Source: Fibrobacter sp. UWB11 | GTDB taxonomy: Bacteria; Fibrobacterota; Fibrobacteria; Fibrobacterales; Fibrobacteraceae | Length of the DNA stretch: 64,000 nt | Assembly: GCF_900143015.1 (NCBI RefSeq) | Contig: NZ_FSRT01000002.1 | Location: 744,001-808,000, forward strand | Direction of reading: 5' to 3' | The notes under the pieces: model-generated | What the model saw: only the letters and a program-made list of their open reading frames with translations | The model's database searches: none | Told to the model about the DNA's origin: nothing | Part shown: positions 753 through 20,332 of the stretch, piece after piece | Position numbering within the stretch: the stretch's first letter is position 1 | Layout: each line of letters opens with the position of its first letter | Program-made: the position numbers and the translations under genes

Positions 753-1391
753 TTATGGCGTTACACATCTTACGGATCGATAGTCCGCCTTCGCGAACGC
801 GTTCAAGCTCGCCGCATCACTGCTGAACGACAAGAACAAGTAATATGCATTCGATTCAGGATTTTCAGCATCTTCCGTCGCACTCCAAAAGTACGCATAC
901 CCACCAATACCATCGAACTTGCCTCCAGTAACTGTACCATCATCCGTTTTCAAAACTGCGCCGCGATAACCCGCCGGAAGCGCGTTGAATCCGAATTCAT
1001 CCGTGCCGTTTCCTTTCTTGAACCAACCATCTTTAGCCTTCAAAGCCGCGCCCGCATCGCCTTTGGACGACGCCACGCCATCCTTGAACATCTCCGCAAT
1101 AAGTTTTTCGAAATCCACTTTCGTCGGGAGGCGCCAACCCTCAGGGCAAACCGTTTTCGCCTCCGCCCATGTATAGAGCCTCCCCAGGCGCTTGCAATTT
1201 CGCGAGTCCCCATCCGGACAAACACTCGCCTCCGTTTTGTAATTCAGATTCTCCGCCATCCATGTGAGATCGCCAATCTTCACAACATCATAGCTCTGCC
1301 CGTCACGCGGATCCGTGAAAGACTCGGAACAAGCCGAGAGGAAGAAAGAAAGAGCGGCGATAGTGAAAGAGGTGTGGAATGGGATGCGCAT
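753..1391 (-). CDS. FISUMP-domain lipoprotein
   Basis: Exported lipoprotein of 212 residues. The N-terminus is a lipoprotein signal with lipobox LSAC, Cys21 being the lipidation site. The rest is one FISUMP domain (Fibrobacter succinogenes major paralogous domain, TIGR02145): it opens with DPRDGQSYDVVKIGDLTWM, continues with AENLNY, the Cys-containing CPEGWRLPT block and the YFWSATE block, and ends at RSVRCV. The family is greatly expanded in Fibrobacter and its function is unknown; the fold is probably related to sulfatase-modifying/C-type-lectin-like modules. It is monocistronic and convergent with the TtcA-like gene. This is the main taxonomic marker in the window. Confidence 0.9.
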   Translation of the reverse strand: MRIPFHTSFTIAALSFFLSACSESFTDPRDGQSYDVVKIGDLTWMAENLNYKTEASVCPDGDSRNCKRLGRLYTWAEAKTVCPEGWRLPTKVDFEKLIAEMFKDGVASSKGDAGAALKAKDGWFKKGNGTDEFGFNALPAGYRGAVLKTDDGTVTGGKFDGIGGYAYFWSATEDAENPESNAYYLFLSFSSDAASLNAFAKADYRSVRCVTP

Positions 1392-2440: not shown

Positions 2441-3709
2441 ATGCTTGTATCGTTTACTGTAGGAAATTTCCGTTCGTTCAAAGAGAACAAGACCTTTTCC
2501 ATGAAGGCCACCTCCATTCAGGAACTCAAGGAATTCATACGCGAAGATAACAACTTCAAACTGCTACCATCTATAGCCATTTACGGAGCGAATTCCAGCG
2601 GCAAAAGCAATTTGCTTTCGGCTATAGGAATGATGAAAAAGATTCTGCTTTCTTCCGTTAAGACAAATCCAACAGAAGAACTGAAAACAGACCCTTTTAA
2701 ATTAGACGAACTTTATCCGCAAAAACCGACTTTTTTCGAAGTCGTATTCACATCGAGCGATGACACCTATAAGTATGGCTTTGAATATAGTCCAAGAAAA
2801 ATTAATAGAGAATGGCTGTATACAATCAAAAACGATAAGGAAAAGCGTCTTTTTATTCGAAACAACGATGGTATAGGCGTTAGCAAAGATTTTCCTGAAG
2901 GAAAAGACAAAGAAGAATCTACAGCAGACAACCGCTTATTTTTGTCTCTTGTAGCACAGTTGAACGGGAAAACATCAAAATCTATAATGGGATGGTTTGA
3001 AGATTTGAGAGTCACTTCCGGCGTAAAGGACGACGATTTTAAGACCTTCTCAATCAAATATTTGTTTGCAGCCAATGAAAAATCGGAAAAAGCAAAAAGT
3101 TTTCTTAATGGAATGGATTTAGGATTTTCTAATATCAGAGAATCCGAAACAGGATTAAAAAAGTATGCCCGCGACAATATTACAGGGTTAGAAGCATTAT
3201 TAAACTTCATTCCCGATGAACTAAACAATGCTCTAAAATTTCCAACACTCGAAACAGGGCACATTGTTCGAAAAAAAGATGGCTCATCAAGCGAAGCCTT
3301 CTTTTCCAATGATGAAATGGAATCTGAAGGAACGAAAAAAATCATCAATATGTCAGGGCCGATTATAGACACACTTGAAAAGGGCGGAATAATCGTTATT
3401 GATGAATTTGACGCCAAGCTCCACCCCCTACTCACCAAGAAAATCATTGAATTATTTAATTCTCCCGAGACAAATGCAAACAAGGCTCAACTGATATTCG
3501 CGACACATGACACAAACTTGCTCAGCAACAAGATTTTCCGCAGGGATCAAATCTGGTTTGCAGAAAAGAACCGCGAAGACGAATCGACCGACATCTATCC
3601 GCTTAGCGAAATCAAAGAACAAAACGGGGAAAAGATAAGATACGATCGAGTTTACGAGAAAGACTACATCAATGGCAGATATGGCGCAATTCCTTACTTG
3701 AGAGGTTAA
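2441..3709 (+). CDS. RloA/AbiLi-like AAA15 family ATPase
   Basis: ABC/SMC-type ATPase of 422 residues. The N-terminal FTVGNFRSFKE is the typical start of the RecF/OLD-like AAA15 family. Walker A is GANSSGKSN (49-57), Walker B IIVIDEFD (317-324) and the H-loop ATHDT lies near 353. The family pairs with RloB proteins; the same pairing is found in lactococcal AbiL abortive infection (AbiLi/AbiLii) and in rlo genes placed inside type I restriction loci. The stop codon is followed after one base by the RloB start, so the two are co-translated. The likely role is the phage-sensing or switching ATPase that controls the RloB effector; this is inferred from the family. Confidence 0.8.
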   Translation: MLVSFTVGNFRSFKENKTFSMKATSIQELKEFIREDNNFKLLPSIAIYGANSSGKSNLLSAIGMMKKILLSSVKTNPTEELKTDPFKLDELYPQKPTFFEVVFTSSDDTYKYGFEYSPRKINREWLYTIKNDKEKRLFIRNNDGIGVSKDFPEGKDKEESTADNRLFLSLVAQLNGKTSKSIMGWFEDLRVTSGVKDDDFKTFSIKYLFAANEKSEKAKSFLNGMDLGFSNIRESETGLKKYARDNITGLEALLNFIPDELNNALKFPTLETGHIVRKKDGSSSEAFFSNDEMESEGTKKIINMSGPIIDTLEKGGIIVIDEFDAKLHPLLTKKIIELFNSPETNANKAQLIFATHDTNLLSNKIFRRDQIWFAEKNREDESTDIYPLSEIKEQNGEKIRYDRVYEKDYINGRYGAIPYLRG

Positions 3710-3710
3710 T

Positions 3711-4454
3711 ATGAAAAAACTCTCGTTAGAAGAAATTGCACAAGAAGAAAAAATACACGCACAACGAATTGAGCAGGAATCGCAAGCCAAAGAGCGATTT
3801 GTAAAGCTCACATTTTTGATTGCAACCGAAGGCACACAGACTGAGCCGAATTATTTCAATGCACTCAAAGCGGAGCTCGAAAAATCGAACAGATTCAACA
3901 TCGACATTTCCGTGCAAGGCAAAGGGAAATCGACAACAGCACTTGTCAGCAAAGTTCATCGCCAGATAAAATACAACCACCAAGAATACGACCGCGTCTG
4001 GGTCGTATTTGACCGGGATGAATTTCCCGATTTTGACGAAGCCATCCAACAAGCCGCAGAACACAAAATCAATTGCGCTTGGTCAAACGAAAGTTTTGAA
4101 CTTTGGCTACTACTGCATTTCAAAGATGTTTCTGAACGCACAAGTCGCAAAGACCTTTGTGATTTGCTAGAAGAAGCCATCCGTAACGAATTGCATAAAA
4201 CCGACCCGAACGCCCTCTACGACTACACCAAAGGCAACATCAAAATCTACGAGCATGCAACAACTCTCGGCAACGAAGCAAAAGCTTTCGCAAGAGCTGA
4301 AGCCCTTAGGAATAATTTTAAGGGTTCAGCAAATGCTCCAAGCATGCAAAATCCTTGCACACATGTAGATGAACTTGTATTTGAACTGAGAAATCCAGAA
4401 CTGACGGCTGAGAAAGTTAGGGAAGAAGAAAAGAACGAAAACTCAAGCTACTAA
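3711..4454 (+). CDS. RloB/AbiLii-like putative TOPRIM effector
   Basis: RloB-family protein (PF13707) of 247 residues. After a charged N-terminal helix come LIATEGTQTEPNYF (Glu40 in the EGxxTE motif), a strand ending VVFDRDEF (Asp101, Asp103) and NESFELWLLLHF (about 127-138). A glutamate followed by DxD after a hydrophobic strand is the TOPRIM pattern, so a metal-dependent nuclease effector is likely. That reading is inference from motifs; the family assignment is firmer. It is translationally coupled to the RloA-like ATPase and followed 12 bases later by an unknown gene. Confidence 0.78.
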   Translation: MKKLSLEEIAQEEKIHAQRIEQESQAKERFVKLTFLIATEGTQTEPNYFNALKAELEKSNRFNIDISVQGKGKSTTALVSKVHRQIKYNHQEYDRVWVVFDRDEFPDFDEAIQQAAEHKINCAWSNESFELWLLLHFKDVSERTSRKDLCDLLEEAIRNELHKTDPNALYDYTKGNIKIYEHATTLGNEAKAFARAEALRNNFKGSANAPSMQNPCTHVDELVFELRNPELTAEKVREEEKNENSSY

Positions 4455-4466
4455 AGGTTATTCCAA

Positions 4467-5141
4467 ATGATTCTCGATAACGATCCACTCGGTTTATACA
4501 GCATCGACATCAAATATGAAGGTTCAACAAGTGCGACCCAATACTGTATTGATGACTTTATGAAGCATCTCTATGGAAGTCGCAAAATTGTGGACATGAC
4601 AATCCTGACCTGCGAAAATTACCACGCGCTCATGTTATGCTTTGAAAATCAGGATTACATTGTCTTTATCAAAAGCGGATTGACTTCAGGTTATCTAGGC
4701 ACAGGCCCCAATGGAACATCTCTTATTATCCGCCTTGCCGAAGAAGCAGGAATTACTATTAAAGAACTGAACGCAGCACCTTCGCTATTCAAGAGAATCA
4801 ATTCTTCTCTCGCTACAGTAAAAGATGTAGAATTCATAAAAAAGAACAGCAAGGAAAGTCTTGATTACGACCGTCTTTGCCTAAAGAATGTCAATAAAGA
4901 ATATGTCCAACAAGCAAAGGACTCCTTCAAGAAAAACAAGGACATCATTTTCGTTAGGGCTGAAGATGAAAAGACAAAAGACTCTGTTGAGATTAATCTA
5001 GAGAAAATAAACAAAAAAATAGACTTACTCATAAAGAAATTGGACAAAATCGAAATTAATACCAATAATTCCAGTCTTTCATCAACACTAAAAGAAATTC
5101 TGTCAATTGTATCGTCTATAAAAACAGTTTTCGGACAATAG
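4467..5141 (+). CDS. Unknown protein with C-terminal coiled coil, downstream of RloB
   Basis: Protein of 224 residues that I do not recognise. The N-terminal half is mixed alpha/beta with a glycine-rich stretch (SGYLGTGPNG). The last about 70 residues are a charged coiled-coil-like segment with repeated I/L-K-K-I/L spacing (for example INKKIDLLIKKL). There is no signal peptide or membrane segment. It starts 12 bases after the RloB-like stop and ends convergent with the three-Cys gene, with 11 bases between stops, so it is probably the third cistron of the RloAB operon. Its position suggests an accessory or oligomerisation partner; this is inference. Confidence 0.6.
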   Translation: MILDNDPLGLYSIDIKYEGSTSATQYCIDDFMKHLYGSRKIVDMTILTCENYHALMLCFENQDYIVFIKSGLTSGYLGTGPNGTSLIIRLAEEAGITIKELNAAPSLFKRINSSLATVKDVEFIKKNSKESLDYDRLCLKNVNKEYVQQAKDSFKKNKDIIFVRAEDEKTKDSVEINLEKINKKIDLLIKKLDKIEINTNNSSLSSTLKEILSIVSSIKTVFGQ

Positions 5142-5152
5142 AAAGAAAACAT

Positions 5153-5881
5153 CTACCCCTTCGGCATCGCTTGGTAAATTTTCCCATTTAACAACTTTCC
5201 GTTTGCCTTTTTAGAACGGCGGACTCCGTCAGCACCCCATGTTCCCCACTGTTTAAAAAAGAAAGCGACTTTCTGTTCCGAAGCTTGCTTCTGGATTTTT
5301 TCCACCCATGCTTTTTGCATTGGCCTTGCCTTAGGGCCGCTTTCACCACCAACAATGACCCAATGTATTCCGTCAAGATTAGTCTTACCAAGATCACTTA
5401 GCAAAGGTTCACATGAGAGAAAGCGAACTTTAGCATCGATTTTACGCAATACTGCTATACGGTTTTTACGAGCAGAGTTCTCAACGGTTACTCCAATCCA
5501 AGCATTATCCGGCACGCTTCGCGTTCTGAAATATTCCTCCATTCGTTCCGCTCTTTTCGTGAGAATTTGAAAGCGATGATTCGTGGCCTTTTTGATTGTT
5601 TTGAAAACCTTATCAATAAAAGTAAAAGGAACTTTTTCATTGAACAGGTCACTCATGGAACATACAAAGATGTTGCTGGGAGATCGCCAATGAAGAGGTT
5701 CATCTAAAGATTCTTCATGTATTGTAACATCAAAGCCGTTTTTATATTTCACCAGCCCCATATTCTGCAAACGCAAAGACATGGTTGCCGCATAACAATT
5801 TGCACAACCTTCAGATAAGCGGTCACATCCAGTAACCGGATTCCAAGTCTGATCGGTCCATTCAATCTTTGTAGTTTTCAT
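5153..5881 (-). CDS. Three-Cys (Gp37/Gp68, DUF5131) radical-SAM-like protein
   Basis: Protein of 242 residues from the phage Gp37/Gp68 family (PF07505). It starts with WTDQTWNPVTGC and has a CX6CX2C cluster (Cys19, Cys26, Cys29), the three-Cys motif that suggests a radical-SAM-like Fe-S site. Other conserved blocks are FVCSMSDLF, RFQILTKR, WIGVTVEN and GGESGPKARPM. It is encoded directly after the TcmP-like gene with no intergenic base, and that partnership is the known genomic habit of both families. Chemistry and substrate are unknown. It is the last gene of the minus-strand defence block. Confidence 0.82.
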   Translation of the reverse strand: MKTTKIEWTDQTWNPVTGCDRLSEGCANCYAATMSLRLQNMGLVKYKNGFDVTIHEESLDEPLHWRSPSNIFVCSMSDLFNEKVPFTFIDKVFKTIKKATNHRFQILTKRAERMEEYFRTRSVPDNAWIGVTVENSARKNRIAVLRKIDAKVRFLSCEPLLSDLGKTNLDGIHWVIVGGESGPKARPMQKAWVEKIQKQASEQKVAFFFKQWGTWGADGVRRSKKANGKLLNGKIYQAMPKG

Positions 5882-6982
5882 TTAAACAGCCTTAATATAA
5901 ATTCTTTCGGTTTTATCATCATCAAGATAGAACGCGTTCTTTCTAGGTTGTTTCGTTTCATCGCATAAACGAACCTGAATTTTTCCCTGCTCACTAAATT
6001 TTTTCAATGCAGCATTACCATGCTTAGGCAAGGAACCATGTTCATAACAAAAATTGCGAACTTCTATATTCGTCTTATGCCCTGTTTCCAAAAAAGTCAT
6101 TAACTTTTCTTCTAGAGACTCATAAAAAAAAGATTCAAGGAATGAAACCTGGTCGCCTTGGTTCTTGTTATATCCTGAACCTTCTTCCTTATCTATGTTC
6201 CATTTCGTTTCAACGAATTTTTCCAATCCTTTACGATTGCTGGAAAAATAAATCAAACAATTATGTCCTTTACCAGAATTGTCTTGAATGATAAAACTAT
6301 CAACAAACAAGCCCAACTTTTCTCGAAGCGTATCAAGAATACTGCGAACAAACGCAACATCACTTCCTATCGTAGATGGATCTGGTACAGATATAAAATC
6401 ATCTAAAAACATTCTTATAGCTTTATAATCTTCGTCCTTACTCTTAAAACGATAAATAAAGGATACTGGCAAAAAGAGCAAGAGTTCTGTATTTCCATCA
6501 TTCAAAATGGCCTTTATGTCATCCAAATGAATACCTTTATAACCGAAGGGATCTATAAAGAAAAATCTCTTGAAATAATTATGATTTTTGTGTTTTGCTA
6601 TTATTTTAGGAAGTATCTCCGAATAATCCTGATTTTGGACATTCACTTCTACCCAGGATTGTCTGGGAGCCTTATGTTCAGACACAAGCTGTTTGAGTTT
6701 TTGAAAATTTTCAGGATTCATTTCATTGAAGCATATCTTTACCTGCAAGTCATCCAAATATGTTTGGGAAAGATAGTCCAATAATATCAAGGGACTTCCG
6801 GGATTGCCCAATTCATCTTGTCCAGGACCAGCGAATAAATCTGCTATATAGACGGAATTCTTTGTATTCCACGATTGCTTATACGCCTTACTTAATACCT
6901 TAAGGTATTTTGTTATATAGGCCTTATAGATGCCAAGTTTAGCCTTGGTAGAATCGTTAAATTTGTCAAAGAATTCGGGCAT
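5882..6982 (-). CDS. tcmP: TcmP-like three-Cys-motif partner protein
   Basis: Protein of 366 residues of the TcmP family (TIGR04474). The N-terminal part looks like a Rossmann methyltransferase: YIADLFAGPG (45-54) resembles SAM-binding motif I and FFIDPFG (141-147) resembles the catalytic DPPY-type motif IV. The family is defined by its neighbour, a three-Cys Gp37/Gp68 protein, which is exactly what follows. Six bases separate it from the HNH gene upstream. The pair could modify nucleic acid or a small molecule; no substrate can be read from the sequence. The family call is firm, the function unknown. Confidence 0.8.
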   Translation of the reverse strand: MPEFFDKFNDSTKAKLGIYKAYITKYLKVLSKAYKQSWNTKNSVYIADLFAGPGQDELGNPGSPLILLDYLSQTYLDDLQVKICFNEMNPENFQKLKQLVSEHKAPRQSWVEVNVQNQDYSEILPKIIAKHKNHNYFKRFFFIDPFGYKGIHLDDIKAILNDGNTELLLFLPVSFIYRFKSKDEDYKAIRMFLDDFISVPDPSTIGSDVAFVRSILDTLREKLGLFVDSFIIQDNSGKGHNCLIYFSSNRKGLEKFVETKWNIDKEEGSGYNKNQGDQVSFLESFFYESLEEKLMTFLETGHKTNIEVRNFCYEHGSLPKHGNAALKKFSEQGKIQVRLCDETKQPRKNAFYLDDDKTERIYIKAV

Positions 6983-6988
6983 ATAAAT

Positions 6989-8011
6989 CTATTTATGAAA
7001 TTTCTTCCAAAAATCCTCTTTTAACTTTTTAAAAAGATAGTTTTTCATTTCTGCACCTAATGGAATACCTAAAATCAGACTTTTAAATTCCTTTTCTGTT
7101 CCTAATATTTTGCGATTATTTTGCACTTTGATTTTGTTATTCTTTTGAATTCTTTTTATCAAATCAATCAACTCAATTTGATAGCAGTTGTAAGAATCTT
7201 CCAATTTAAAAATCATTTTTGAATTTTTCACTTGATTTTTTATAGATGAGCTTTCTTTTGCTTTTAAACAAATTTCAATATCTTTATTTAAATCAACTTT
7301 TTCAACGTTAGATAATGTACGACTTCCCATCTTAATACCAAAAGTAGCATCATCATAAAAACCACGAACATAAGGACTTAAAATACTTTTTTCTTTATCG
7401 CTTTTTGTATGATTACAATTATAACAAGAAGGAACCATATTATAGATTGAGCATGAAAAAATAGGGTACTCGGCTTTAGGGAAAAAATGATCTATTTGCG
7501 GTTTAATTCCATCATCTCCTGAGGAGACATATATATATTGAGCATTACAATATGGGCAAACAGATTCGTGAAGCTTTAATAAAAATCGTCTTGCCCCCCA
7601 ATTAGTTTCTTCCGATTTATTAAAGGTATCGTAGTCTAAGAATTTTCTAATTCTAACACCAAGGTCATACAAATCTTTTTCATATTTATTAAGATTACGT
7701 ACTTTTTCATCTTTGTGAATGATTTGATATTTAATATGCAAACAAGAGTATTTTCTTTTCATTTTTAAAAGATCTGTAAATTCCCCACATGTAATAATTT
7801 CCAAATCATCAAAGAATGATTTTCCCAAATTTTTAGGAATCCGATATTGAGAGCTATATTGTTTTTCAAAAGCATCCAAATGATTAATTAAACATTGTTT
7901 TCTATTTTGTTTTCGTCCTCGTTCAATAGATGAACATCTATTTTGAATATAATTCCAATGGAGAGCTTTAATATCAACTTTAGTTTTTTGAGGAATGTCT
8001 ATGTACATCAT
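6989..8011 (-). CDS. HNH endonuclease, PtuB-like (Septu-type)
   Basis: Protein of 340 residues with a zinc-stabilised HNH fold: CPYC (Cys152, Cys155), QIDHFFPK with Asp174-His175, and CYNCN (Cys196, Cys199, Asn200) followed by HTKSD. This is the arrangement of PtuB, the nuclease of Septu anti-phage systems. The gene begins 4 bases after the stop of an overcoming-lysogenisation/RecF-like ATPase, as ptuA-ptuB pairs do. The N-terminal 150 residues are helical and the C-terminus lysine-rich. The coding sequence is strongly A+T-rich. Septu membership is inferred from motif plus pairing. Confidence 0.78.
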   Translation of the reverse strand: MMYIDIPQKTKVDIKALHWNYIQNRCSSIERGRKQNRKQCLINHLDAFEKQYSSQYRIPKNLGKSFFDDLEIITCGEFTDLLKMKRKYSCLHIKYQIIHKDEKVRNLNKYEKDLYDLGVRIRKFLDYDTFNKSEETNWGARRFLLKLHESVCPYCNAQYIYVSSGDDGIKPQIDHFFPKAEYPIFSCSIYNMVPSCYNCNHTKSDKEKSILSPYVRGFYDDATFGIKMGSRTLSNVEKVDLNKDIEICLKAKESSSIKNQVKNSKMIFKLEDSYNCYQIELIDLIKRIQKNNKIKVQNNRKILGTEKEFKSLILGIPLGAEMKNYLFKKLKEDFWKKFHK

Positions 8012-8015
8012 ATCA

Positions 8016-9854
8016 TTAATCTCTAAGATTGGAAACCAATTCTTTCAAAATAGGATCGCCAATTTGTGATATCAACATTTCTGCATATTCGCTATTTTTG
8101 TTCTCTTTTATCAAATCAATACATTCCTTTATTTTATTTTCAGCAAAATTTCCTATTGTATTTTCTACAAAAAAACCAGAATTTAATATATCAAACATAT
8201 TGCCAGCAAAGAATGTTGATGGTTTATCTTCTACCAAATAATCCCTAACTTCCACATTTTGCCAAAAACCATTCTCTTCGTTATACACCCTTTTCAAAAA
8301 GACAACGTTATCACGCAGTAACTCCGTAAGAACAAATGGAGAATGTGTTGTCAGGAATATTTGACAATGCAGACCATTCGAAATATATCCATTCTCTCTA
8401 AGAGAGTCGCTTATCATTTTTAGTCCCGAAACAAATCTTTCAACCCAATGATATTGCCAGTCTGGATGTAAACAAGTGTCTGCTTCATCAATAAACAGGT
8501 ATACATTTCCACAACAATCTTTTTTCAGCGCAGAATACAAACGGTAATAAAACTTCACCAAATATCTTTCTCCAGAACTAAACGGTCTAGATAAAGAAAA
8601 CTCAAAAAATGGTGTATCCAGCAATAGGCTGTTGTAAAGCCTATTAATAATTTTCAACGAATCCTTGCTTCGAGCAACATTAAATTCATAGCCATCTTTT
8701 TGCGCCTTCCCAACTTTTTTACATTCATTAAGGATTTTTTTCATTTTATCACGTACTTCAAAAAATGAATCCCGATTCCATAATTTTAGATTGGATACAT
8801 CGTCAAAATAAATCAATTCATTTAAATCCTCGTCCGATTCAAATTTTTCATGACAGCAGTAATTCAGCAACAATGAGTAACGAAATTTATCATCTAAACT
8901 TAAAGTTTCAAATTTGCTTGCAAAATCTGTTCTTGATTGTTCTAATATTTTTTGTTTTGAAATATGGTCTAAGGACTGATATCCTTTTGTTTCACCCTTA
9001 TTTTGTAATTCAAAAATAAAATGCTGATTTATAAAAGCTTTTTCATTGCGCGACACAAGAATATTTATACATGCCAAAACATTTTCCAACATTGGTTTAA
9101 AGAACAACCTATTTGGAATATTAAAAAATTTTGAAATATATTCACCATTTTCAATTAAAAAATCATTCAATCTTTGATGTTCCATTTGAAGATATGCACT
9201 AAGTCGATCAAAGTCTTTGTACTTTTTATCCATCTCTTCACGGAGCATTGTTAAAGCACTCAAATCATAAGCCAATAAAGCATCTGTTGAAATGTTTTTC
9301 AAATTCAATGTCATAGGTGCATAAGACTTCGTTTCCCATCTATAATCCACATCATTGAAAATAGGCGAATAATACAGATATAATCCTTCAAGTAATGATT
9401 CTTCAGAAACATCCGCTAGATCATAACGTTTTTCGTTATATTCAACAAATGTATTTTCGGCTATGGAACATTTTATTTCAGATTCAACATTTGTAATATA
9501 ACCATACTCTTTTTTCTCATCATCAACACATAACAACACATACTTCTCTTCACATTTATTATATCCAGCAGTAATCTTTGCTATTTTTTTTAAAAGTTGC
9601 GTTTTACCAGCACCATTATCACCGATAAATACTTTCAAATCAGAAATATTTTCCGAAAAGAATGATGAAGGATTATATCCTCCCTTTTTGCAAATACTTT
9701 TATTTATTGTAAATACAAGTTGTTGTTCATCTTTTTGAACACAATATTCAGATGAGAGATTAACAAAAAAATTTTCAAATAAACAGGAGCCACTAGAATC
9801 AAACTCGTCTAATGGAATATATTTATCAATCCAAAATGCAATATATTTTTTCAT
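8016..9854 (-). CDS. AAA ATPase, PtuA-like (Septu-type)
   Basis: ABC-type ATPase of 612 residues: Walker A GDNGAGKT (78-85), signature SSGE (426-429), Walker B YLFIDEAD (452-459) and H-loop LTTHS (His504). The long insertion between Walker A and the signature is typical of RecF/SMC-like defence ATPases. With the HNH gene 4 bases downstream it forms a PtuAB-like pair, in which the ATPase is thought to hold the nuclease in check until infection. It starts 17 bases after the STAND NTPase stop, which suggests these three genes are made together. Strongly A+T-rich. Confidence 0.78.
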   Translation of the reverse strand: MKKYIAFWIDKYIPLDEFDSSGSCLFENFFVNLSSEYCVQKDEQQLVFTINKSICKKGGYNPSSFFSENISDLKVFIGDNGAGKTQLLKKIAKITAGYNKCEEKYVLLCVDDEKKEYGYITNVESEIKCSIAENTFVEYNEKRYDLADVSEESLLEGLYLYYSPIFNDVDYRWETKSYAPMTLNLKNISTDALLAYDLSALTMLREEMDKKYKDFDRLSAYLQMEHQRLNDFLIENGEYISKFFNIPNRLFFKPMLENVLACINILVSRNEKAFINQHFIFELQNKGETKGYQSLDHISKQKILEQSRTDFASKFETLSLDDKFRYSLLLNYCCHEKFESDEDLNELIYFDDVSNLKLWNRDSFFEVRDKMKKILNECKKVGKAQKDGYEFNVARSKDSLKIINRLYNSLLLDTPFFEFSLSRPFSSGERYLVKFYYRLYSALKKDCCGNVYLFIDEADTCLHPDWQYHWVERFVSGLKMISDSLRENGYISNGLHCQIFLTTHSPFVLTELLRDNVVFLKRVYNEENGFWQNVEVRDYLVEDKPSTFFAGNMFDILNSGFFVENTIGNFAENKIKECIDLIKENKNSEYAEMLISQIGDPILKELVSNLRD

Positions 9855-9871
9855 AATTACCGCTCTTTCTC

Positions 9872-12800
9872 TTATTGATTCATAAAATGGTTCATTTTAA
9901 CATAAGGTTTCCCTGACCTCATATATCCAACTCCAGACAATGTCATCCAGTCATCACTTTCTTCTTCTTTTAAAGAAGAAACAGCAATCCTTTTTTCTCC
10001 AAGAATCGTCCATGCAATTTTAAGTCCACGTTTTTTTAACGCAATTAAAAATTCATTTTTTCTAACCATCAAACATGAGGGATGGTTTTCATTAACAGAA
10101 GGATCTTTACAAACAACATGACCTGTTTCATCAGCAAACTCACCATCTTTGATTCCCTGATGTAAACCCATTAATTCGCATAATTCTTTTGAGGGTTTCA
10201 TAAATGAAAAAAGATCTTTTTTAGAATGATCATACTCATTTTCCCAATAATAACAGTAGGTTGTCAACGCAACTGATGCTACGTTTTTCTCATTCAAGTC
10301 ACCAATCGTATCCCAATCATAATCATTACCATATTCAGCTTCATAAGCTCTAGACCAACAATACTCTCTAGAATAAGTCCTATAACATTGCTGTTTTTCA
10401 GGCAATTGCATTCCATAAAAATTACTTCCTTTTGACCAGTGCAAAAAAGAATTGAAATCGCGATCAGTCATAATGTAACTTTTTATCTCACACTCAAACT
10501 GTTTTCCGATATTAAATGTTTTACGCAATTGATTAGGCTGAATCAAAATTATTGATTGCTCTAAAATAATCCAATCATTATTGTTAGCATCTTTCTCTAA
10601 AAGAAAGTTTTCTATAGAAGGATAGTTATTTTTCTTTGAAATCCATTTTTTATTTTTTTGGTTCCAACGCCATTCTTTCTTGAACCGAGAATAAAATACG
10701 TCATCTGCATTATAAATAGATTTTGTTATAGTTGTCGGATCAAAATCTCTTACAAAGGGTTCAAAGCTCCCCTTATACGAACCTTTTTTCATTTGGCAAT
10801 TATCAGACACTCTTGCAAGCAAATCATAGAAAGCAATCCACTGATATTTTTTTCCTATCCGTTCACATATATTTCCAAAACGTTCGCCATGAGACACACT
10901 CATATCAAATTCACCGTGAATATTATAGTCATACCCACTATCTTTTAGAATCCACATTATGGCGTAATTACTCAATAAATTGGTATCAATATTCCAATCA
11001 TCAAAAGCACTATCCCAAACATATCTTCCAAAATCTCCATAATGCGATGTTCCTCGACCATATTCTGTTGTCATGGAATGTAGAATTATATTTATTGCAT
11101 ATTCTGGAGAACTAACAACCTTTTTTCCATAAGGAATCAAGTTTGCATCAACATCACTATTTGTGGGGAAATGCGTCGGCATTACACTTCTATATGGTGG
11201 ATAAATTTTCCTTATGTCAAAATCAAATTTTATACCTAAATATTTCCCATATTCAATTGTATTCATTGCATAATCACGTAATAAAATATCAGGAATAACA
11301 TTTACAGGCTCAAAAATATTTTTATACACGCATTCGCACAATCTTTTTATACAATCTCTATCAAAATTGTTTGTCACACATCCAAAAGCAACTGCGTACA
11401 TTCTCTGCAAAACATATGGATCATTCACATTCTTAAACTTATCTAACAAGAAAATCAAAACATCTATTTTATTTTTCAGCAAATTTACAAGAGCTGCTGA
11501 TGATTCATCTCGTACTTCTCTATTCATTGATGTCAAAAACCAAATCAACATTTGGCCTAATAACCGAGTTGATTCATCAGATAATAATTCTAAATCATCG
11601 TTATGCCAAGTCCAATCAATTATTCGTTTAACATTATTTATATCAGAGTCATCTTGTGTACTTATAAAAATAGACCATTCAGCATCCCGGTTTCCCATAC
11701 TTAATGGGAATAAATATTCATGAAGATAATCGCTATTTAATGCACATTCAGGCTTTGAGCACAAAAGTAGAAGCGTGTCTAGCCATTTATTTTTATAATA
11801 TTTTTCTGGCAAAATATATGTAATTATGTAATTATGAATTTTTCTTATATCTATTTTCTTACGCCACAACAGCCCTTCAATAAAAGGCTCTTGCGTTGCT
11901 ATGATATCTTCATCCGCAATTATTTCGAAAAGTTCCAAATCATAATTATCTGGTAAAAGAATTGCCCACGCATTCAAAAGCCCAACATAATTGAAAAAAC
12001 CAAATTCAGATGTAACATACTCATGCAATGAACCACCATCTTTAAACATTAATTTAATATTTTCAGGATTATGTTCTGTTCCGAGCAAAGCTTTCGCGAC
12101 CAATAAATCATAATATCTTTCATAAGCAAACAATATACTTACTTTTTTTTCTTTATCATAAGATTTTATTAGAATTCCCTCAGACACTAATTCACTAAAA
12201 ATATCTACAGCTCTAATTCCTGAACTACAGAATGATTCATCTAGTGATTTGAGAGCGCATTCGCTAGATATCAGTTCTTTTTTTTGTTTCAACATTTCTA
12301 AAGCAATATTTTCTATAGATGTTCTTATTAAATACAGTGAAGGATCTATATTATATTTTCTTGAAATTCTTTCATTAACATCTTCAATATAGTTTTTGAA
12401 AATATCAAGAAGACTATTGAACCCACTAGGAATTTCGTGCAATCCTCTTTTTTTTAACAATTCACAAAAAAGTTTTAAAAATAAAGGGTTAGAAAATTCA
12501 GGATTCAGCATGGGCGTATTTGGAAGATTTATTTCATAATATTCAAAAAAGTGTTTAACAGCCTCAAAAGAAGCCATGTTAAATCCTTTATGCGTAACAA
12601 GGCAAAGTAAAGATTGTACCCGCTCAGATATAACATAATCTTTATATTCTGAACGAACACTTAAAACAACCCCAACATTGGGATATTTGCGAATATCGTT
12701 CAGAAACATTTCCAAATTTTGCGCCCAGAAATTCGGAACATCACATTCATTTAACGCGTCTATAAAAATCAAACATCGACAACGCTTTAACCAACCATAT

Positions 12801-13573
12801 AGATTAAGGCAACGCAAAAAGATTATCTCATCCCATTTTACCGACATCTTTTCTAAAAATTGTTTCCAAAGACTTCCCCTTTCAAAGGTATTCCCCAAAA
12901 AAAGACAAGTCCATTTTTTACACTGAAGTCTTTTCGTAGCTATATCAGCAAGCAAATGCGATTTGCCAGAACCAGCTTTACCTACAATTAACATTATTTG
13001 ATTTTGTATGAAACGCCCTGATTCATTAAAAAATTTCTGCAGTTTCCTTAATTCGTTTCCAGCATCATTTATTTTTACTTCATTATATTGTATCTGATTT
13101 TTGATTTCTTTTGGTACCGTTTGTTTTTTTAGGTTCAATCCACACATATAAATATTCACCAACATTTTGTTGGCTTTTTCGATTTCGTTTTTTAAAGAAT
13201 CAAGATCAACAGGCTTTCTTCTATTTTTTTCAAAAGAAAAATAAAAATTCGCTATAAAATCTACACTTTGTTTAAAATTATCAACTAAGTTATCGTATTG
13301 AGAATTTCCAACCAATCCTACACCATTGCTTTTTTCACTAAATCCCTTAAAATAGGGAAACATACAGCTAAGGCTATCTTCATCTTTAGCTAACATTTTA
13401 AAATTTTCTTCAATTGGCAAATTCACATGCAATTCAGGCGTATAACGAGGGCCTAACTTGAAAATACTATCATCAAGTTTTCTTTTTAAAACATCTAATG
13501 AAAAAATTTTCCGAAAATCCAATATTATAGGTATAATTTTTGGTATTGAATTCAGTATAGTTAAAATAGACAT
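9872..13573 (-). CDS. Large STAND/NACHT-like NTPase, candidate Avs-type phage sensor
   Basis: Protein of 1233 residues when started at the ATG at 13573, which has AAAAAGG seven to eight bases upstream; a TTG 18 bases earlier would overlap hsdS and is less likely. After a hydrophobic N-terminal helix comes a conserved-looking block RYTPELHVNLPI (about 43-54), then Walker A GKAGSGKS (198-205), Walker B LIFIDALNE (268-276) and a sensor strand VVLSVRSEY. The remaining 900 residues look helical, as in STAND signal-transducing ATPases. No Mrr, PLD, Cap4, TIR or SIR2 effector is visible, so the effector may be encoded nearby. Strongly A+T-rich. The fold is well supported; the defence role is inferred from context. 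Confidence 0.7.
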   Translation of the reverse strand: MSILTILNSIPKIIPIILDFRKIFSLDVLKRKLDDSIFKLGPRYTPELHVNLPIEENFKMLAKDEDSLSCMFPYFKGFSEKSNGVGLVGNSQYDNLVDNFKQSVDFIANFYFSFEKNRRKPVDLDSLKNEIEKANKMLVNIYMCGLNLKKQTVPKEIKNQIQYNEVKINDAGNELRKLQKFFNESGRFIQNQIMLIVGKAGSGKSHLLADIATKRLQCKKWTCLFLGNTFERGSLWKQFLEKMSVKWDEIIFLRCLNLYGWLKRCRCLIFIDALNECDVPNFWAQNLEMFLNDIRKYPNVGVVLSVRSEYKDYVISERVQSLLCLVTHKGFNMASFEAVKHFFEYYEINLPNTPMLNPEFSNPLFLKLFCELLKKRGLHEIPSGFNSLLDIFKNYIEDVNERISRKYNIDPSLYLIRTSIENIALEMLKQKKELISSECALKSLDESFCSSGIRAVDIFSELVSEGILIKSYDKEKKVSILFAYERYYDLLVAKALLGTEHNPENIKLMFKDGGSLHEYVTSEFGFFNYVGLLNAWAILLPDNYDLELFEIIADEDIIATQEPFIEGLLWRKKIDIRKIHNYIITYILPEKYYKNKWLDTLLLLCSKPECALNSDYLHEYLFPLSMGNRDAEWSIFISTQDDSDINNVKRIIDWTWHNDDLELLSDESTRLLGQMLIWFLTSMNREVRDESSAALVNLLKNKIDVLIFLLDKFKNVNDPYVLQRMYAVAFGCVTNNFDRDCIKRLCECVYKNIFEPVNVIPDILLRDYAMNTIEYGKYLGIKFDFDIRKIYPPYRSVMPTHFPTNSDVDANLIPYGKKVVSSPEYAINIILHSMTTEYGRGTSHYGDFGRYVWDSAFDDWNIDTNLLSNYAIMWILKDSGYDYNIHGEFDMSVSHGERFGNICERIGKKYQWIAFYDLLARVSDNCQMKKGSYKGSFEPFVRDFDPTTITKSIYNADDVFYSRFKKEWRWNQKNKKWISKKNNYPSIENFLLEKDANNNDWIILEQSIILIQPNQLRKTFNIGKQFECEIKSYIMTDRDFNSFLHWSKGSNFYGMQLPEKQQCYRTYSREYCWSRAYEAEYGNDYDWDTIGDLNEKNVASVALTTYCYYWENEYDHSKKDLFSFMKPSKELCELMGLHQGIKDGEFADETGHVVCKDPSVNENHPSCLMVRKNEFLIALKKRGLKIAWTILGEKRIAVSSLKEEESDDWMTLSGVGYMRSGKPYVKMNHFMNQ

Positions 13574-13587
13574 ATATTGTACCTTTT

Positions 13588-14778
13588 TCAATGTACCACT
13601 ACTTGGCCGTTCATGAGGAGTGGGAGGAGTTTGTCGCGGAGGGTGGTGAGTTTTTGATTTTCAGCAATCAACCTTTCTTTCTTTTTCATGAATGATTGAT
13701 ACATTTCATCAAATTTATACATCAACTCTTTTGGTGGATGAGCCCAAGGGGTTGCTATAAAAGAGTCTGTCTGAAAATTCTTTATACCACTTGTCTTTCC
13801 TTCAAAGTTGAAGAAAATATCACTTGCATAGAATTTCTGCCACATTTCAAAGAAATAAGAAGCGCATTTGGCATCTTTCAATCGAATAATTTGACAGAAA
13901 TTTGAGCACGTCATGGGAGAATCAAAACGATTTAATGTATTCCGCGTTACAAAAGTGGCTCTTCCCGTAGATTGCGTTGGGCTACCTCCAGATATTTCAA
14001 CAATGATGTCATTCGGATTCAGAATACGATCTTTCTTTTTTGTTGAAATATAACGGACGGGCATATCTACCATATCAACGATATCAGCTCCACGAACACA
14101 GTGTACACGAATGTCATCTTCGGAAGCCTCTTCTTTTCCCCATTCTCCATTAAAATTTTTCTCAATAAATTCAGATATAGGAGCAACATCCCACCCCACT
14201 GGTATTTCGCGTTTGAGGGTTGAGTTGTAGGTCATGGGGCCGCCGGTGGTTTTGTAGGGGTGGCCGTTTTTGTCGGGGAAGTCGTATTGAACGAACCAGT
14301 AGTCGTATAGGCGTTTTGCCATTGCTTCGAGTTTCTGGTTCATCTTTTTGTTCAGGGCGATTTTATCATCTAATGCGGAAAGGACGGAAGCAATTTTCTT
14401 TTGGTCATCATATTTAGGCAAATAAACGACTAAATTTGAGATTATTTCTTGAGTTAGTAGAGGCTGAGCAGCCCCTACATGCTTTTTATTCAAATCAAGA
14501 AGTTTTAATAAATAATAAACGCAATCCTTACTGAATCCATCTTTAACAGTAACAGATATCGCATTATCAGAGACCCAACACTTACCATCATATTTTTGAA
14601 CACTTCCACAATTAGCACCAACACGACCAACGATGATGTTGTTTTCATAATTATATTCAGCAACATAATCTATAATCCCATTTCCACCAAAAACAGGAAA
14701 GGGACCTTTAGAATTCGGTCTTAATCTACCATTATAAAAGTTTAAAACATCACCCAATTTGTATTTCGTCATTTCCAT
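13588..14778 (-). CDS. hsdS: Type I restriction-modification specificity subunit
   Basis: HsdS sets the DNA target of the type I enzyme. Two target-recognition domains are visible: TRD1 begins KYKLGDVLNF and ends in a coiled-coil spacer (KKIASVLSALDDKIALN...KRLYDYWF); TRD2 begins VGWDVAPISEF and ends with a second helix and LRDKLLPLLMNG. The ATG at 14778 is preferred; an in-frame ATG at 14817 lacks a ribosome binding site, and 14772 is another option. Base composition is mosaic: the spacer (about 14215-14350) and the extreme 3' end are G+C-rich like hsdM, while both TRDs are A+T-rich, which fits TRD exchange. Confidence 0.9.
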   Translation of the reverse strand: MEMTKYKLGDVLNFYNGRLRPNSKGPFPVFGGNGIIDYVAEYNYENNIIVGRVGANCGSVQKYDGKCWVSDNAISVTVKDGFSKDCVYYLLKLLDLNKKHVGAAQPLLTQEIISNLVVYLPKYDDQKKIASVLSALDDKIALNKKMNQKLEAMAKRLYDYWFVQYDFPDKNGHPYKTTGGPMTYNSTLKREIPVGWDVAPISEFIEKNFNGEWGKEEASEDDIRVHCVRGADIVDMVDMPVRYISTKKKDRILNPNDIIVEISGGSPTQSTGRATFVTRNTLNRFDSPMTCSNFCQIIRLKDAKCASYFFEMWQKFYASDIFFNFEGKTSGIKNFQTDSFIATPWAHPPKELMYKFDEMYQSFMKKKERLIAENQKLTTLRDKLLPLLMNGQVVVH

Positions 14779-14873
14779 ATTCGTTTTTCTCAAACTCTCA
14801 TTTAGATTGCTTCCCATTCGCTACGCTCAGGGCTGGCTTGCTATCGCTCCTCGCAACGACTTTCTCTCGAATA

Positions 14874-15502: not shown

Positions 15503-17152
15503 CTAATTGAATTTCAAGTTGCTCAGTTGTTTCTGTATTTCCTTCTCGAGTTTGTGGCTTTCGGCGAACATGGCGGCGAGTTCTTCGGTGTCGGCTTTCA
15601 TCTGGGCGTTGAATTCGTCCTCGGTAATATCCACGTAGTCTATCTTGATGTCGAAATACTGGCCGGCGCTCAGGCTGTAGCCTTTTTCCTTGACTTCGCC
15701 GTAGGTCACGACTACGCTGAAGTCTTCGACGGCTTTGGCCTTGCGAAAGGTGGTCACGATTTTCTCGATTTCGTCGTCTTCGAGGCGGACTTTCTTGAGG
15801 CCGTTCGCGTCCTTGTATTCCTTGCCGAGTTTGCTTGCGTCAACGAGGGTGACTTTGTCGTTGTCGGTCTTTTTGCGGGTCTTGTCGAAGAAGAGCACGC
15901 TCACGTTGGTGCCGGTGTTCGCGAACACGTTGCTCGGCATGCTGACCACGCCATAGACGATGTGTTCGTCAACGATGCGTTCGAGGATTTTGTGCTCGAT
16001 GCCGGATTTCGCGGTGATGAACCCGGTGGGGATAACGATGGCGCCCTTGCCGCCTGCCTTGATGCTGTTTACCACGTGCTGGATAAAGCAGGTGTAGATG
16101 GCCATGCTTTCCTTTTTCTTGTTCGGGACTTTCGGCACGCCTGCCCAGAAGCGGGCGTTCCATTTCTTTTCGATGTCGTCGCGGGTGTCGCTGAAGTCCA
16201 TCTTGAAGGGCGGATTACTCACTACGTAATCGAACTGCTTGAGGCTCTTGCCGTCGTCGCTCTTGTGGTAGGGTTCCAGGAGGGTGTCGCCCTGCACGGC
16301 GTGATCGAGGCTCGAAACGAGTCCGTTCAAGAGCAGGTTCAGCTTGAGCATTTTGTTACTGCGCTGCGAGATGTCTTGCGCAAAGATGGTGCAGCGGTCT
16401 TCGCCAATCTGGTGGCTGAGCGCCATGAGCAAGGTGCCGGTGCCTGCGCTGGGGTCGTAGCATTCTACGTTGTGCAGGTCGGCGTTATCGCCCACCAAGA
16501 GGCGGGCCATGATTTTCGCGATGGCCTTGGGGGTGTAATATTCGGCGTACTTGCCGCCGCCTGCGGTGTTGTAGTCCTTGAGCAGGTATTCGAAGATGTC
16601 AGAGAAAAAGTCGTAGTGTTCGGCGAAGGCGTCTTCGAAGCTGAAGTTCACGAGTTTATCGACAAGGGCGCGGGCGAAGTTTGCACGCTGGGCGTCGTCG
16701 GTCACGAAGATGGTGAGCTTTTCAAAGATGGGGATTTTCGTTTCTTGTGCGGTCTTGGTGTAGAATACGTCCAGGTTGTCCTTCGCGATGGCGACCATGG
16801 TCTCGTCAAAAATGACGTCGAAGTCGCCCTTGGCCTGCTTGTTCCAGAGGTTTGCAATCAGGTAGTCGGGCTTGAACACCGGGACTTCGGGCGGCAAGAA
16901 GAGGCTCACCTTTTCGCGGTCGGCCTTGGAGAGTTTCGCGTATTCCTCTTCCCACTTGTCAGATTTTTTGAGTGCCTTCAGGCAAGGGTCATTAATTTTC
17001 TTGAGTTCGTAGCCGAACTTGTCGGCCATAAACTTATACAAAAACACCTGGGTGATAATCTTGTATTCGTTGCCGTCATTGCCCATGCCGTACGTTTGGC
17101 AAGTGGCCTTGAGAGAGTCGATAAGGGCAATGGTCTTGTCTTTGATGTTCAT
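15503..17152 (-). CDS. hsdM: Type I restriction-modification methyltransferase subunit
   Basis: HsdM of 549 residues, the N6-adenine methyltransferase of the type I complex. Visible: an N-terminal HsdM helical domain, YYTPKAIAKIMARLL ahead of the SAM-binding motif DPSAGTGTLLMAL, and the catalytic motif IV NPPF in YVVSNPPFKMDF. The start codon follows the hsdR stop without an intervening base. Codon use is G+C-richer than in the distal genes of the same block. Confidence 0.95.
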   Translation of the reverse strand: MNIKDKTIALIDSLKATCQTYGMGNDGNEYKIITQVFLYKFMADKFGYELKKINDPCLKALKKSDKWEEEYAKLSKADREKVSLFLPPEVPVFKPDYLIANLWNKQAKGDFDVIFDETMVAIAKDNLDVFYTKTAQETKIPIFEKLTIFVTDDAQRANFARALVDKLVNFSFEDAFAEHYDFFSDIFEYLLKDYNTAGGGKYAEYYTPKAIAKIMARLLVGDNADLHNVECYDPSAGTGTLLMALSHQIGEDRCTIFAQDISQRSNKMLKLNLLLNGLVSSLDHAVQGDTLLEPYHKSDDGKSLKQFDYVVSNPPFKMDFSDTRDDIEKKWNARFWAGVPKVPNKKKESMAIYTCFIQHVVNSIKAGGKGAIVIPTGFITAKSGIEHKILERIVDEHIVYGVVSMPSNVFANTGTNVSVLFFDKTRKKTDNDKVTLVDASKLGKEYKDANGLKKVRLEDDEIEKIVTTFRKAKAVEDFSVVVTYGEVKEKGYSLSAGQYFDIKIDYVDITEDEFNAQMKADTEELAAMFAESHKLEKEIQKQLSNLKFN

Positions 17153-20100: not shown

Positions 20101-20332
20101 CCTTCTGGATATCCGATAGCACGCTCTGTGCAGAAACAGTCGCAGCCGGATTCAGCTTCTTGAACTGCTCCGCAAAAATGTCCACAAGGATGTTCGTTTC
20201 CGGGTCAAACGCGATGTTCGCCGGTGTTGCGCCAGACTCTGAAATTTTGCCCAAATACGTATAGCCGATGCGAGCCAAATGCTGAATCGCAGTCAGTTGA
20301 ACGCGCGTCGCTTCCGTAAAAAGATTAGGCAT
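17153..20332 (-). CDS. hsdR: Type I restriction endonuclease subunit
   Basis: HsdR of 1059 residues, the DNA translocase and nuclease of the type I complex. The N-terminal PD-(D/E)XK nuclease is seen in PDITLFVNGLPLVFIEVKK. It is followed by the SF2 motor: Walker A TQGSGKTALSF, DEAH box FIMDEAHRGY, motif III ALTGTPL, and motifs V/VI LLTGFDAP and QAITRVNRPY. It is the first gene of the minus-strand block and diverges from the 54-residue gene. The order hsdR-hsdM-hsdS is common; what is unusual is the two small genes between hsdM and hsdS and the long tail of other defence genes. Confidence 0.95.
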   Translation of the reverse strand: MPNLFTEATRVQLTAIQHLARIGYTYLGKISESGATPANIAFDPETNILVDIFAEQFKKLNPAATVSAQSVLSDIQKELDDDDLGQQFYKRLTSYSPLRLVDFEHPENNTYHCTAEFTCKNGDESFRPDITLFVNGLPLVFIEVKKPNNVGGMVAESKRMNDERFPKKKFRRFINITQLMIFSNNMEYDAKGGVVPIEGVFYCTAAKNEARFNCFREENPKRAAIAPFHANYPYLPIPADLEKRVLMDFNVPVLKENPEYKTNLDINTPTNRVLTSMVSPERLLFLLKYGIAYLHVEKEKDGQIESRHEKHIMRYQQFFAAMIIREKLAAGATSGIVWHTQGSGKTALSFHLSKVLKDYYAKQNKVAKFYFIVDRLDLLEQATEELSNRGLKVTTANSRTELMEQFRTQQALQGNAGVDEITVVNIQKFENDTEKVEIPNYATNLQRVFIMDEAHRGYKPGGCFLSNLFNADKNAIKIALTGTPLIGSEKASCKVFGDYFHTYYYDRSIQDGYTLKIIREDIETSYRKKLNDAYESVQKLVEKGSVSKDMIIRHPTYVKALLRYIINDLAKFRAMQGDNDLGGMIIAESSEQARNLYKFFNEIQDELNESRIQKINLKAGLILFDSDDKETRKQIINDFKKNYTIDILIVYNMLLTGFDAPRLKRLYFGRKIEDHNLLQAITRVNRPYKNMKRGFLIDFANIKKNFDETNAAYLQELNRYNDADTDPDDNLPDMYNQVMEDKDALINHMKVARQALFSYTTDNAEVFSTEISSLEDKKVLIELRKALELAKDAMNLVRTFGDEALKKDFEKLNIEKLPLMLSEVNHRIAMINQKETWTNSEATQFAVNEAMMNIEFNFSCIGTEELKIIDNGTELREKYKRALRGFLDNFDHEDPVFVELEQEFKRIFDKHGFTPENLAVYNEQNQAMNDILKRLEELRKSNDALLRKYNGDTKFAYVHKRIREENKAREPKRQAPIISKFDEDIVQALLTIKGTIDAKVFDRNDILKQDAYFGKTVMKEIADGLAHFPQIKPEMPDYLFIQQRVAKQYINQYNAYYGN

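Follow-up and report, generated by a model that had tools for sequence, protein, structure and literature searches.

Introduction

What do a methyltransferase-like protein and a small cysteine-motif protein do together when their genes abut in a bacterial defence island? The question is raised by tcmP and duf5131 of Fibrobacter sp. UWB11. Both genes lie in a 64,000-nucleotide stretch of contig NZ_FSRT01000002.1 (assembly GCF_900143015.1, positions 744,001 to 808,000 of the forward strand), here called the window, and each has one copy in the source genome. An earlier note, made from the sequence alone, had described a methyltransferase-like protein and a CX6CX2C protein with no base between them. 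This was confirmed by the open reading frames (ORFs) 5153-5881 and 5882-6982 and by matches to TIGR04474 and PF07505; the duf5131 ATG begins on the first base after the TcmP stop codon. As a tentative answer, held at somewhat less than even confidence, we propose that the pair is a mobile two-enzyme module for nucleic acid modification that travels with anti-phage systems. An exchangeable TcmP would set the target and a constant DUF5131 would carry out a radical step.

Results

Family membership of the two proteins

TcmP scored 141 bits against the TIGR04474 cut-off of 53, and DUF5131 scored 352.7 bits against the PF07505 gathering cut-off of 28.9, covering profile positions 1-243 of 243. PADLOC-DB 2.0.0 holds two candidate systems of interest, PDC-M30 and PDC-M41, and the window proteins both match PDC-M30 models. 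Its two component models were matched over nearly their full length by the adjacent genes (PDC-M30A, E 3.7e-119; PDC-M30B, E 8.8e-116). Judged by these matches, the pair is already catalogued as a phage-defence candidate, and the idea of a defence role is therefore not new. PADLOC gives PDC-M30 a name and no mechanism. A match spanning most of DUF5131 was also obtained to TIGR04471 (radical S-adenosylmethionine, or SAM, mobile pair protein A; 90 bits, E 1.5e-25). The name of TIGR04471 likewise denotes a mobile gene that has a partner, but DUF5131 lies far below the 355-bit cut-off of this family.

Exchange of tcmP beside a nearly constant duf5131

Five congeneric loci, that of the window and those of genomes G077, G105, G073 and G133 (G and L numbers are our designations for genomes and loci), encode DUF5131 proteins that are 91-95% identical. 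Their TcmP proteins fall into two groups. Identity is 73-90% within the group of the window, G077 and G105, 83% between G073 and G133, and only 24-28% between the groups. When the window was aligned with G133 or G073 by blastn, the match of 726-736 bp ran from 4 bases before the duf5131 ATG to no more than 7 bases from its stop codon. G105 and G073 were compared in 30-nt blocks. Identity was 80-93% up to the tcmP ATG and 20-53% within tcmP, then 83-100% from the duf5131 ATG to its stop and 20-40% beyond. The entire tcmP ORF therefore differs between loci that share the preceding and the following gene.

Trees were built from 24 of 86 TcmP/DUF5131 pairs. In the DUF5131 tree six DUF5131 proteins, those of G073 and G133 interspersed among them, formed a single clade (100/100), whereas in the TcmP tree G073 and G133 grouped with Bacteroidota proteins (100/99). 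Constraining the six TcmP proteins to one clade was rejected by the approximately unbiased (AU) test (p 9.2e-5). Either tcmP was replaced or duf5131 spread, and so both genes recombine as separate units. Weaker discordance was seen elsewhere, with DUF5131 and TcmP identities of 82% vs 24% for L106/L107, 80% vs 27% for L208/L227 and 79% vs 28% for L220/L222; part of this may reflect a higher evolutionary rate of TcmP. TcmP occurs in a long and a short form, both of which are found beside one DUF5131 family and are able to replace each other. The exchange of tcmP beside a nearly constant duf5131 suggests, at the level of sequence, that TcmP chooses the target.

Predicted fold of TcmP

The TcmP alignment had 51 rows, the window protein included, drawn from 77 candidates plus the window protein; most short forms were excluded. 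The AlphaFold2 model made with the 50 relatives had a predicted local distance difference test score (pLDDT) of 85.5 and a predicted template modelling score (pTM) of 0.86. The earlier note had proposed a structural comparison of TcmP with DNA and RNA methyltransferases, and this comparison was made with VIA. The top ten rows were RlmJ, the 23S rRNA A2030 N6-methyltransferase, or its homolog 2oo3 (Z 14.8-16.9). RlmJ structure 6qe5 was best (Z 16.9, root-mean-square deviation (rmsd) 3.2, 212 residues), and the tRNA methyltransferase Trm1 came next after the RlmJ rows (Z 13.8).

The AdoMet motifs are intact in the alignment: D48 of motif I is present in 51/51 proteins, F50 in 50/51, G52 in 51/51, G54 in 49/51 and an acidic residue at position 87 in 51/51. 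The motif IV residue D144 is kept in 51/51. With its Rossmann-like fold, glycine-rich motif I and acid after strand 2, TcmP is predicted to be a class I AdoMet methyltransferase. It shares with RlmJ the predicted fold and the D-x-x-A-G-x-G and G-S-P motifs. It differs in that long TcmPs add a C-terminal winged helix, and in being mobile and patchily distributed. Matches to the Pfam GMT-wHTH family were seen in 39/51 aligned proteins with E no higher than 1 (1.9e-16 for the best, 0.084 for the window protein).

A second link to RlmJ came from the Burkholderiaceae, where the TIGR04474 profile matched 214/299 genomes, 21 of them above its cut-off. One protein below the cut-off is RlmJ in the PDB at E 1.6e-70, and two others align with that protein or with RlmJ at 42% and 58%. 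From the shared profile span we infer that the remaining matches below the cut-off are also RlmJ. That TIGR04474 picks up apparent RlmJ orthologs below its cut-off is, by sequence, an independent TcmP-RlmJ link. A match below the cut-off in the E. coli control is, judged from the three such matches in other genomes, most likely RlmJ, and the candidate statement that E. coli has TcmP was rejected.

Predicted fold of DUF5131

For DUF5131, 61 rows were aligned from 116 candidates plus the window protein, and the AlphaFold2 model with 60 relatives had a pLDDT of 95.5 and a pTM of 0.91. The top six PDB rows in Foldseek were spore photoproduct lyase (E 3.1e-4 to 2.6e-3). VIA also placed this lyase first (Z 13.6, rmsd 2.9, 195 residues aligned), followed by viperin-like enzymes (Z 11.0 and 10.7), lysine aminomutase, RlmN and lipoyl synthase. 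All of the top 28 VIA rows were radical-SAM enzymes. DUF5131 is thus predicted to have a partial TIM-barrel, radical-SAM-like fold.

Cysteines C19, C26 and C29 form the CX6CX2C motif and are invariant in 61/61 aligned proteins. Residue 1 of the model aligns with residue 72 of spore photoproduct lyase; C19 would therefore fall near lyase residue 90, which we take to be a cluster cysteine. DUF5131 resembles the lyase in predicted fold and in having three clustered cysteines near the N-terminus. The two differ in cysteine spacing, which is CX3CX2C in the lyase, in the lack of sequence similarity detectable by a profile search of PDB sequences, and in that DUF5131 has no known link to thymine dimers. 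A search of PDB sequences by phmmer, with TcmP and DUF5131 of the window as queries, returned nothing up to E 1.

As a separate observation, Pfam GP88 (phage gene product 88) weakly matched 53/61 aligned DUF5131 proteins (best E 4.9e-9), which suggests a single wider phage family.

Pairing and distribution

TcmP was matched in 17/167 genomes of the phylum, 15 of them over the cut-off. DUF5131 was adjacent and in the same order in 16/16 full-length TcmP loci, that of the window included, so the pairing is not due to chance. The two remaining loci held a 56-residue fragment and a weak partial match. In the Burkholderiaceae, where TcmP exceeded the cut-off in 21/299 genomes, DUF5131 was found in 18/21 loci; within the short stretch of locus available, the other 3 had a second TcmP in its place.

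Pairing was then surveyed from the side of DUF5131 in GTDB genomes, using the best 80 of 573 relatives. TcmP, partial ORFs included, lay within 150 bp in 64 loci and within 1 kb in 2. Ten loci had no TcmP despite adequate flanks, and 4 were cut off. Among the 64 close pairs TcmP came first in 39, DUF5131 came first in 13 and the genes were convergent in 12; a 4-bp ORF overlap was present in 17/40 same-strand pairs with tcmP first. No third conserved partner gene was comparable (TcmP in 72 loci, the next family in 9). Two TcmP-like ORFs, mostly one long and one short, occurred in 10/80 loci. In three such loci an S24-peptidase (LexA/CI-like) gene, perhaps a regulator, precedes DUF5131 (L101:9327-9992, L110:9281-9973 and L115:9354-9995).

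DUF5131 was also found in 159/50,697 phage records and 404/72,556 plasmid records. At 58 viral loci TcmP was adjacent in 15 and absent in 34, while 8 were cut off and 1 had no DUF5131 ORF; the 34 loci rule out the statement that DUF5131 is always paired with TcmP. A scan of viral contigs with the window TcmP as query gave no match.

Methyltransferases beside DUF5131 genes that lack TcmP

Two genes on each side of DUF5131 genes without TcmP (49 loci, 121 proteins) were compared with genes at positions 4-6 (45 loci, 148 proteins). Near-duplicates L033, L057 and L067 were excluded, as were L048, L053 and L071, in which DUF5131 lay outside the gene set, ORFs of <130 residues and ORFs touching the locus ends. 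For positions 4-6 the Pfam matches considered covered 25 of 68 families, supplemented by a local profile scan. DNA methyltransferases were matched by 12/121 near proteins and 3/148 at positions 4-6 (Fisher p 0.0065). The 12 comprised 6 N6/N4, 4 C5, 1 MmeI and 1 D12 enzymes, and in L123 an N6/N4 methylase overlaps the DUF5131 start. These matches are suggestive of a tendency of TcmP-less DUF5131 genes to adjoin DNA methyltransferases. In L131 a 362-residue protein without family match (8842-9930) is encoded directly upstream of a TcmP-less DUF5131 and is a possible further partner.

Defence neighbourhood

The earlier note had held that an absence of enrichment near defence genes would speak against an anti-phage role. 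In a small-scale test such enrichment was found. For it, 12 of the 80 loci, all situated on long contigs, were set against 12 of 20 control regions from the same contigs, whose coordinates were picked before their content was seen. Proteins of at least 130 residues within 6 kb were used, a narrower span than the 10 kb named in the note, with TcmP and DUF5131 excluded. At E 1e-15 the 89 case proteins matched 128 PADLOC families and the 104 control proteins matched 6, the counts being of families rather than proteins, since several models match one protein. The best 25 of the 128 case families include type I and III restriction/modification, Kiwa A and B, dGTPase and PDC-S15; the control families were AbiU and mad3 with 2 members each and four others with 1. 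Because the case loci are accessory DNA and the controls include core genes, the enrichment is relative to the genome background, not to other mobile DNA.

Congeneric relatives carry the pair amid differing defence contexts. Five other loci from the taxonomic order were read over about 20 kb. G077 carries the island of the window. In G105 the pair is accompanied by a DrmMI/type IIG-like methylase, by three ThsB-like TIR genes and by an HNH gene, and the methylase and HNH gene of G073 are almost identical to these (translations compared by eye). G133 has two HEC-06/SspE/Orf5-like genes, and G041 shows no more than weak matches to HsdM and HsdR. That the pair belongs to the Avs2 and restriction/modification system of the window was ruled out, as it stands beside other systems in G105, G073 and G133.

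The locus in the window

The features of the island are collected in Table 1. A minus-strand run of ten ORFs consists of hsdR, hsdM, two small ORFs, hsdS, avs2, the AAA and HNH genes, tcmP and duf5131, in which neighbouring ORFs overlap by at most 4 bases and lie at most 62 bases apart. The AbiLi-like, RloB and 224-residue genes converge on its duf5131 end. The pair had been placed at the end of a defence block; it does end the minus-strand operon, but the island continues on the other side with AbiLi/AbiLii (2441-4454). Restriction/modification and STAND neighbours were borne out, hsdRMS by Pfam and Avs2 by PADLOC, although the Avs2 gene falls slightly below the cut-off of NF041813 (980.5 bits against 1000). 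The proposed Septu neighbours did not hold up: PtuA scored 37.5 bits of the 500 and PtuB 18.2 of the 150 set by NCBIfam, and PDC-M62A/B fit best.

Table 1. Genes of the pair and of the surrounding island, in window coordinates.
Feature	Coordinates	Strand	Remarks
DUF5131 (phage Gp37/Gp68 family; PDC-M30B)	5153-5881	minus	242 aa; CX6CX2C at residues 19-29
TcmP (PDC-M30A)	5882-6982	minus	366 aa; predicted class I methyltransferase fold and C-terminal winged-helix-like region
HNH protein, PDC-M62B (Septu PtuB-like)	6989-8011	minus	PADLOC E 1.7e-41; 6 bases upstream of tcmP
AAA ATPase, PDC-M62A (Septu PtuA-like)	8016-9854	minus	PADLOC E 4.1e-48; PF13175 51.5 bits
Avs2 (AVAST type 2, STAND/NACHT ATPase)	9872-13591	minus	PADLOC Avs2 1022 bits
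HsdS	13588-14817	minus	PF01420 above cut-off at 14323-14775
HsdM	15503-17152	minus	PF02384 above cut-off at 15650-16615
HsdR	17153-20332	minus	PF04313 above cut-off at 19769-20320
AAA_21 ATPase (AbiLi-like)	2441-3709	plus	PADLOC AbiLi E 3.2e-94; other side of island
RloB (AbiLii-like)	3711-4454	plus	PF13707 151 bits; AbiLii E 1.9e-27
224-aa protein, no family assigned	4467-5141	plus	convergent with duf5131
T5orf172 protein	1515-2264		matches candidate PDC-S57; island edge; presumably GIY-YIG-type
FISUMP-like protein	753-1391		presumed from a motif

At E 0.01 the 224-residue protein matched nothing in Pfam, NCBIfam or PADLOC. Its gene accompanies the AbiLi/RloB pair in L182, L200 and L205 and occurs without RloB in L198 and L206; the protein may be a third member of the AbiLi/RloB set. 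The hsd genes, together with parts of the AbiL/RloB/224-residue block and with other cargo, also occur in G064, G116, G113, G128 and G068, genomes that have no tcmP. In this genus a variable defence hotspot lies between the hsd genes on one side and the AbiL/RloB/224-residue genes on the other.

Discussion

The nucleic acid modification suggested in the earlier note fits the predicted folds of both proteins, and the pair is probably a defence-associated modification module. Two AdoMet-type folds are predicted, one in a constant and one in an exchanged protein; the simplest reading is therefore that the methyltransferase picks the target and that its product is then processed by the radical enzyme. 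TcmP would bind S-adenosylmethionine in its class I, RlmJ/Trm1-like domain and recognise a nucleic acid target, helped in the long form by the winged-helix domain. It would probably methylate an exocyclic amino group. DUF5131 would hold a 4Fe-4S cluster on its three cysteines, generate a 5'-deoxyadenosyl radical and perform a second, radical step on the substrate of TcmP. TYW1, which acts on the methylguanine made by Trm5, offers an analogy for this step. As the constant enzyme DUF5131 would work with TcmP as exchangeable target-setter, much as HsdM works beside HsdS. The mechanism is compatible with DNA or RNA, of the invader or of the host, as the substrate.

Several observations weigh against this proposal. 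On the side of TcmP, motif IV is D-[QP]-x-G (residues 144-147) and not the DPPY of RlmJ (DPPYE in full). The hhalign comparison of TcmP with RlmJ (3 sequences) was weak (probability 11.6%, E 0.0026), and a profile search of PDB sequences with TcmP lists no RlmJ. DUF5131 has CX6CX2C in place of the canonical CX3CX2C cluster motif in 61/61 proteins, although the radical-SAM superfamily includes other spacings, and its profile search of PDB sequences listed no solved radical-SAM protein and no lyase at E up to 10. When the DUF5131 tree was constrained to the grouping seen for TcmP, the resulting topology was disfavoured, but the test did not reject it at 0.05 (p 0.085). In G077 the HNH gene is 52% identical to that of the window while its neighbours are 79-95% identical, so exchange of whole ORFs may be general in the island and not special to tcmP. 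TcmP is not obligatory for DUF5131, because 10/80 genome loci and 34/58 viral loci with adequate flanks lack it. Finally, the methyltransferase-neighbour test was devised after the clusters had been seen, some of the phages counted are related, and Fisher p becomes 0.025 once motif-only matches are added.

A broader form of the proposal takes DUF5131 as a constant radical-SAM core with exchangeable methyltransferase 'specificity' subunits, which would be TcmP (long or short) in most bacteria and DNA methyltransferases in some phages. Two-step hypermodification, a methyl group and then a radical reaction, would serve immunity or counter-immunity without a nuclease, and the target would be renewed by replacement of the whole tcmP gene. 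We regard this form as speculative and, taken as a whole, doubtful. A rival explanation, which we think unlikely, is that the pair modifies the DNA of its own carrier, be it a mobile element or a phage, and so shields it from restriction rather than attacking phages. The frequency of DUF5131 in phages and plasmids, the lack of a nuclease in the module and the DNA methyltransferases near TcmP-less DUF5131 genes, many of them in phages, agree with such self-protection. It sits less well with the chromosomal islands of the window and its relatives, where the pair lies beside restriction and Avs2 genes, or with the PADLOC listing as a defence candidate.

The fold matches themselves suggest other roles. 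Since the best match of DUF5131 is a DNA repair lyase, and nucleases and Avs2 are among its neighbours, DUF5131 might reverse a DNA or RNA lesion while TcmP caps or marks the site, healing damage done by a phage or by neighbouring effectors. This is improbable in our view: a partner replaced as a whole would not be needed by a repair enzyme, the spacing of the cysteines is unlike that of the lyase, and the recurrent neighbours examined included no identified repair family. We give still less weight to an antiviral small molecule, in which DUF5131 would, like viperin, produce a modified nucleotide that TcmP would methylate or sense. Viperin-like enzymes are the second fold family, but the lyase scores about 2.5 Z above them, TcmP resembles rRNA and tRNA methyltransferases, and most aligned TcmPs have a winged-helix match. 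That resemblance, to RlmJ (23S rRNA) and then Trm1 (tRNA), could instead mean that the pair alters the ribosome or tRNA, blocking phage translation or resisting an effector that targets them. With the catalytic motif of RlmJ altered in TcmP and no identified neighbour pointing to ribosomes, this too seems to us quite unlikely.

PMC10855318 records PDC-M30 in 32/100 P. aeruginosa strains, 68.8% of those 32 being phage-resistant, which is a correlation. A table of upregulated genes in PMC12445080 has the TcmP gene SMa2243 beside the defence gene hna, and PMC12429752 lists TcmP as prophage cargo; these passages contain no direct test of the pair. In the literature searched, the pair and its families appeared in PADLOC counts and annotation tables only, and no direct test of the pair was found. 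The assignment of predicted folds and the finding that tcmP is exchanged are useful additions, and neither was found in that literature, which leaves most subscription journals outside it.

TcmP and DUF5131 are widespread families, and the predicted folds give the pair a testable chemistry, that of a methyltransferase and a radical-SAM enzyme. The tcmP genes exchanged beside a constant duf5131 form a natural allele series for asking which part picks the target. If the pair does act in defence by modifying nucleic acid, the known modes of phage defence would be extended to radical chemistry on nucleic acid.

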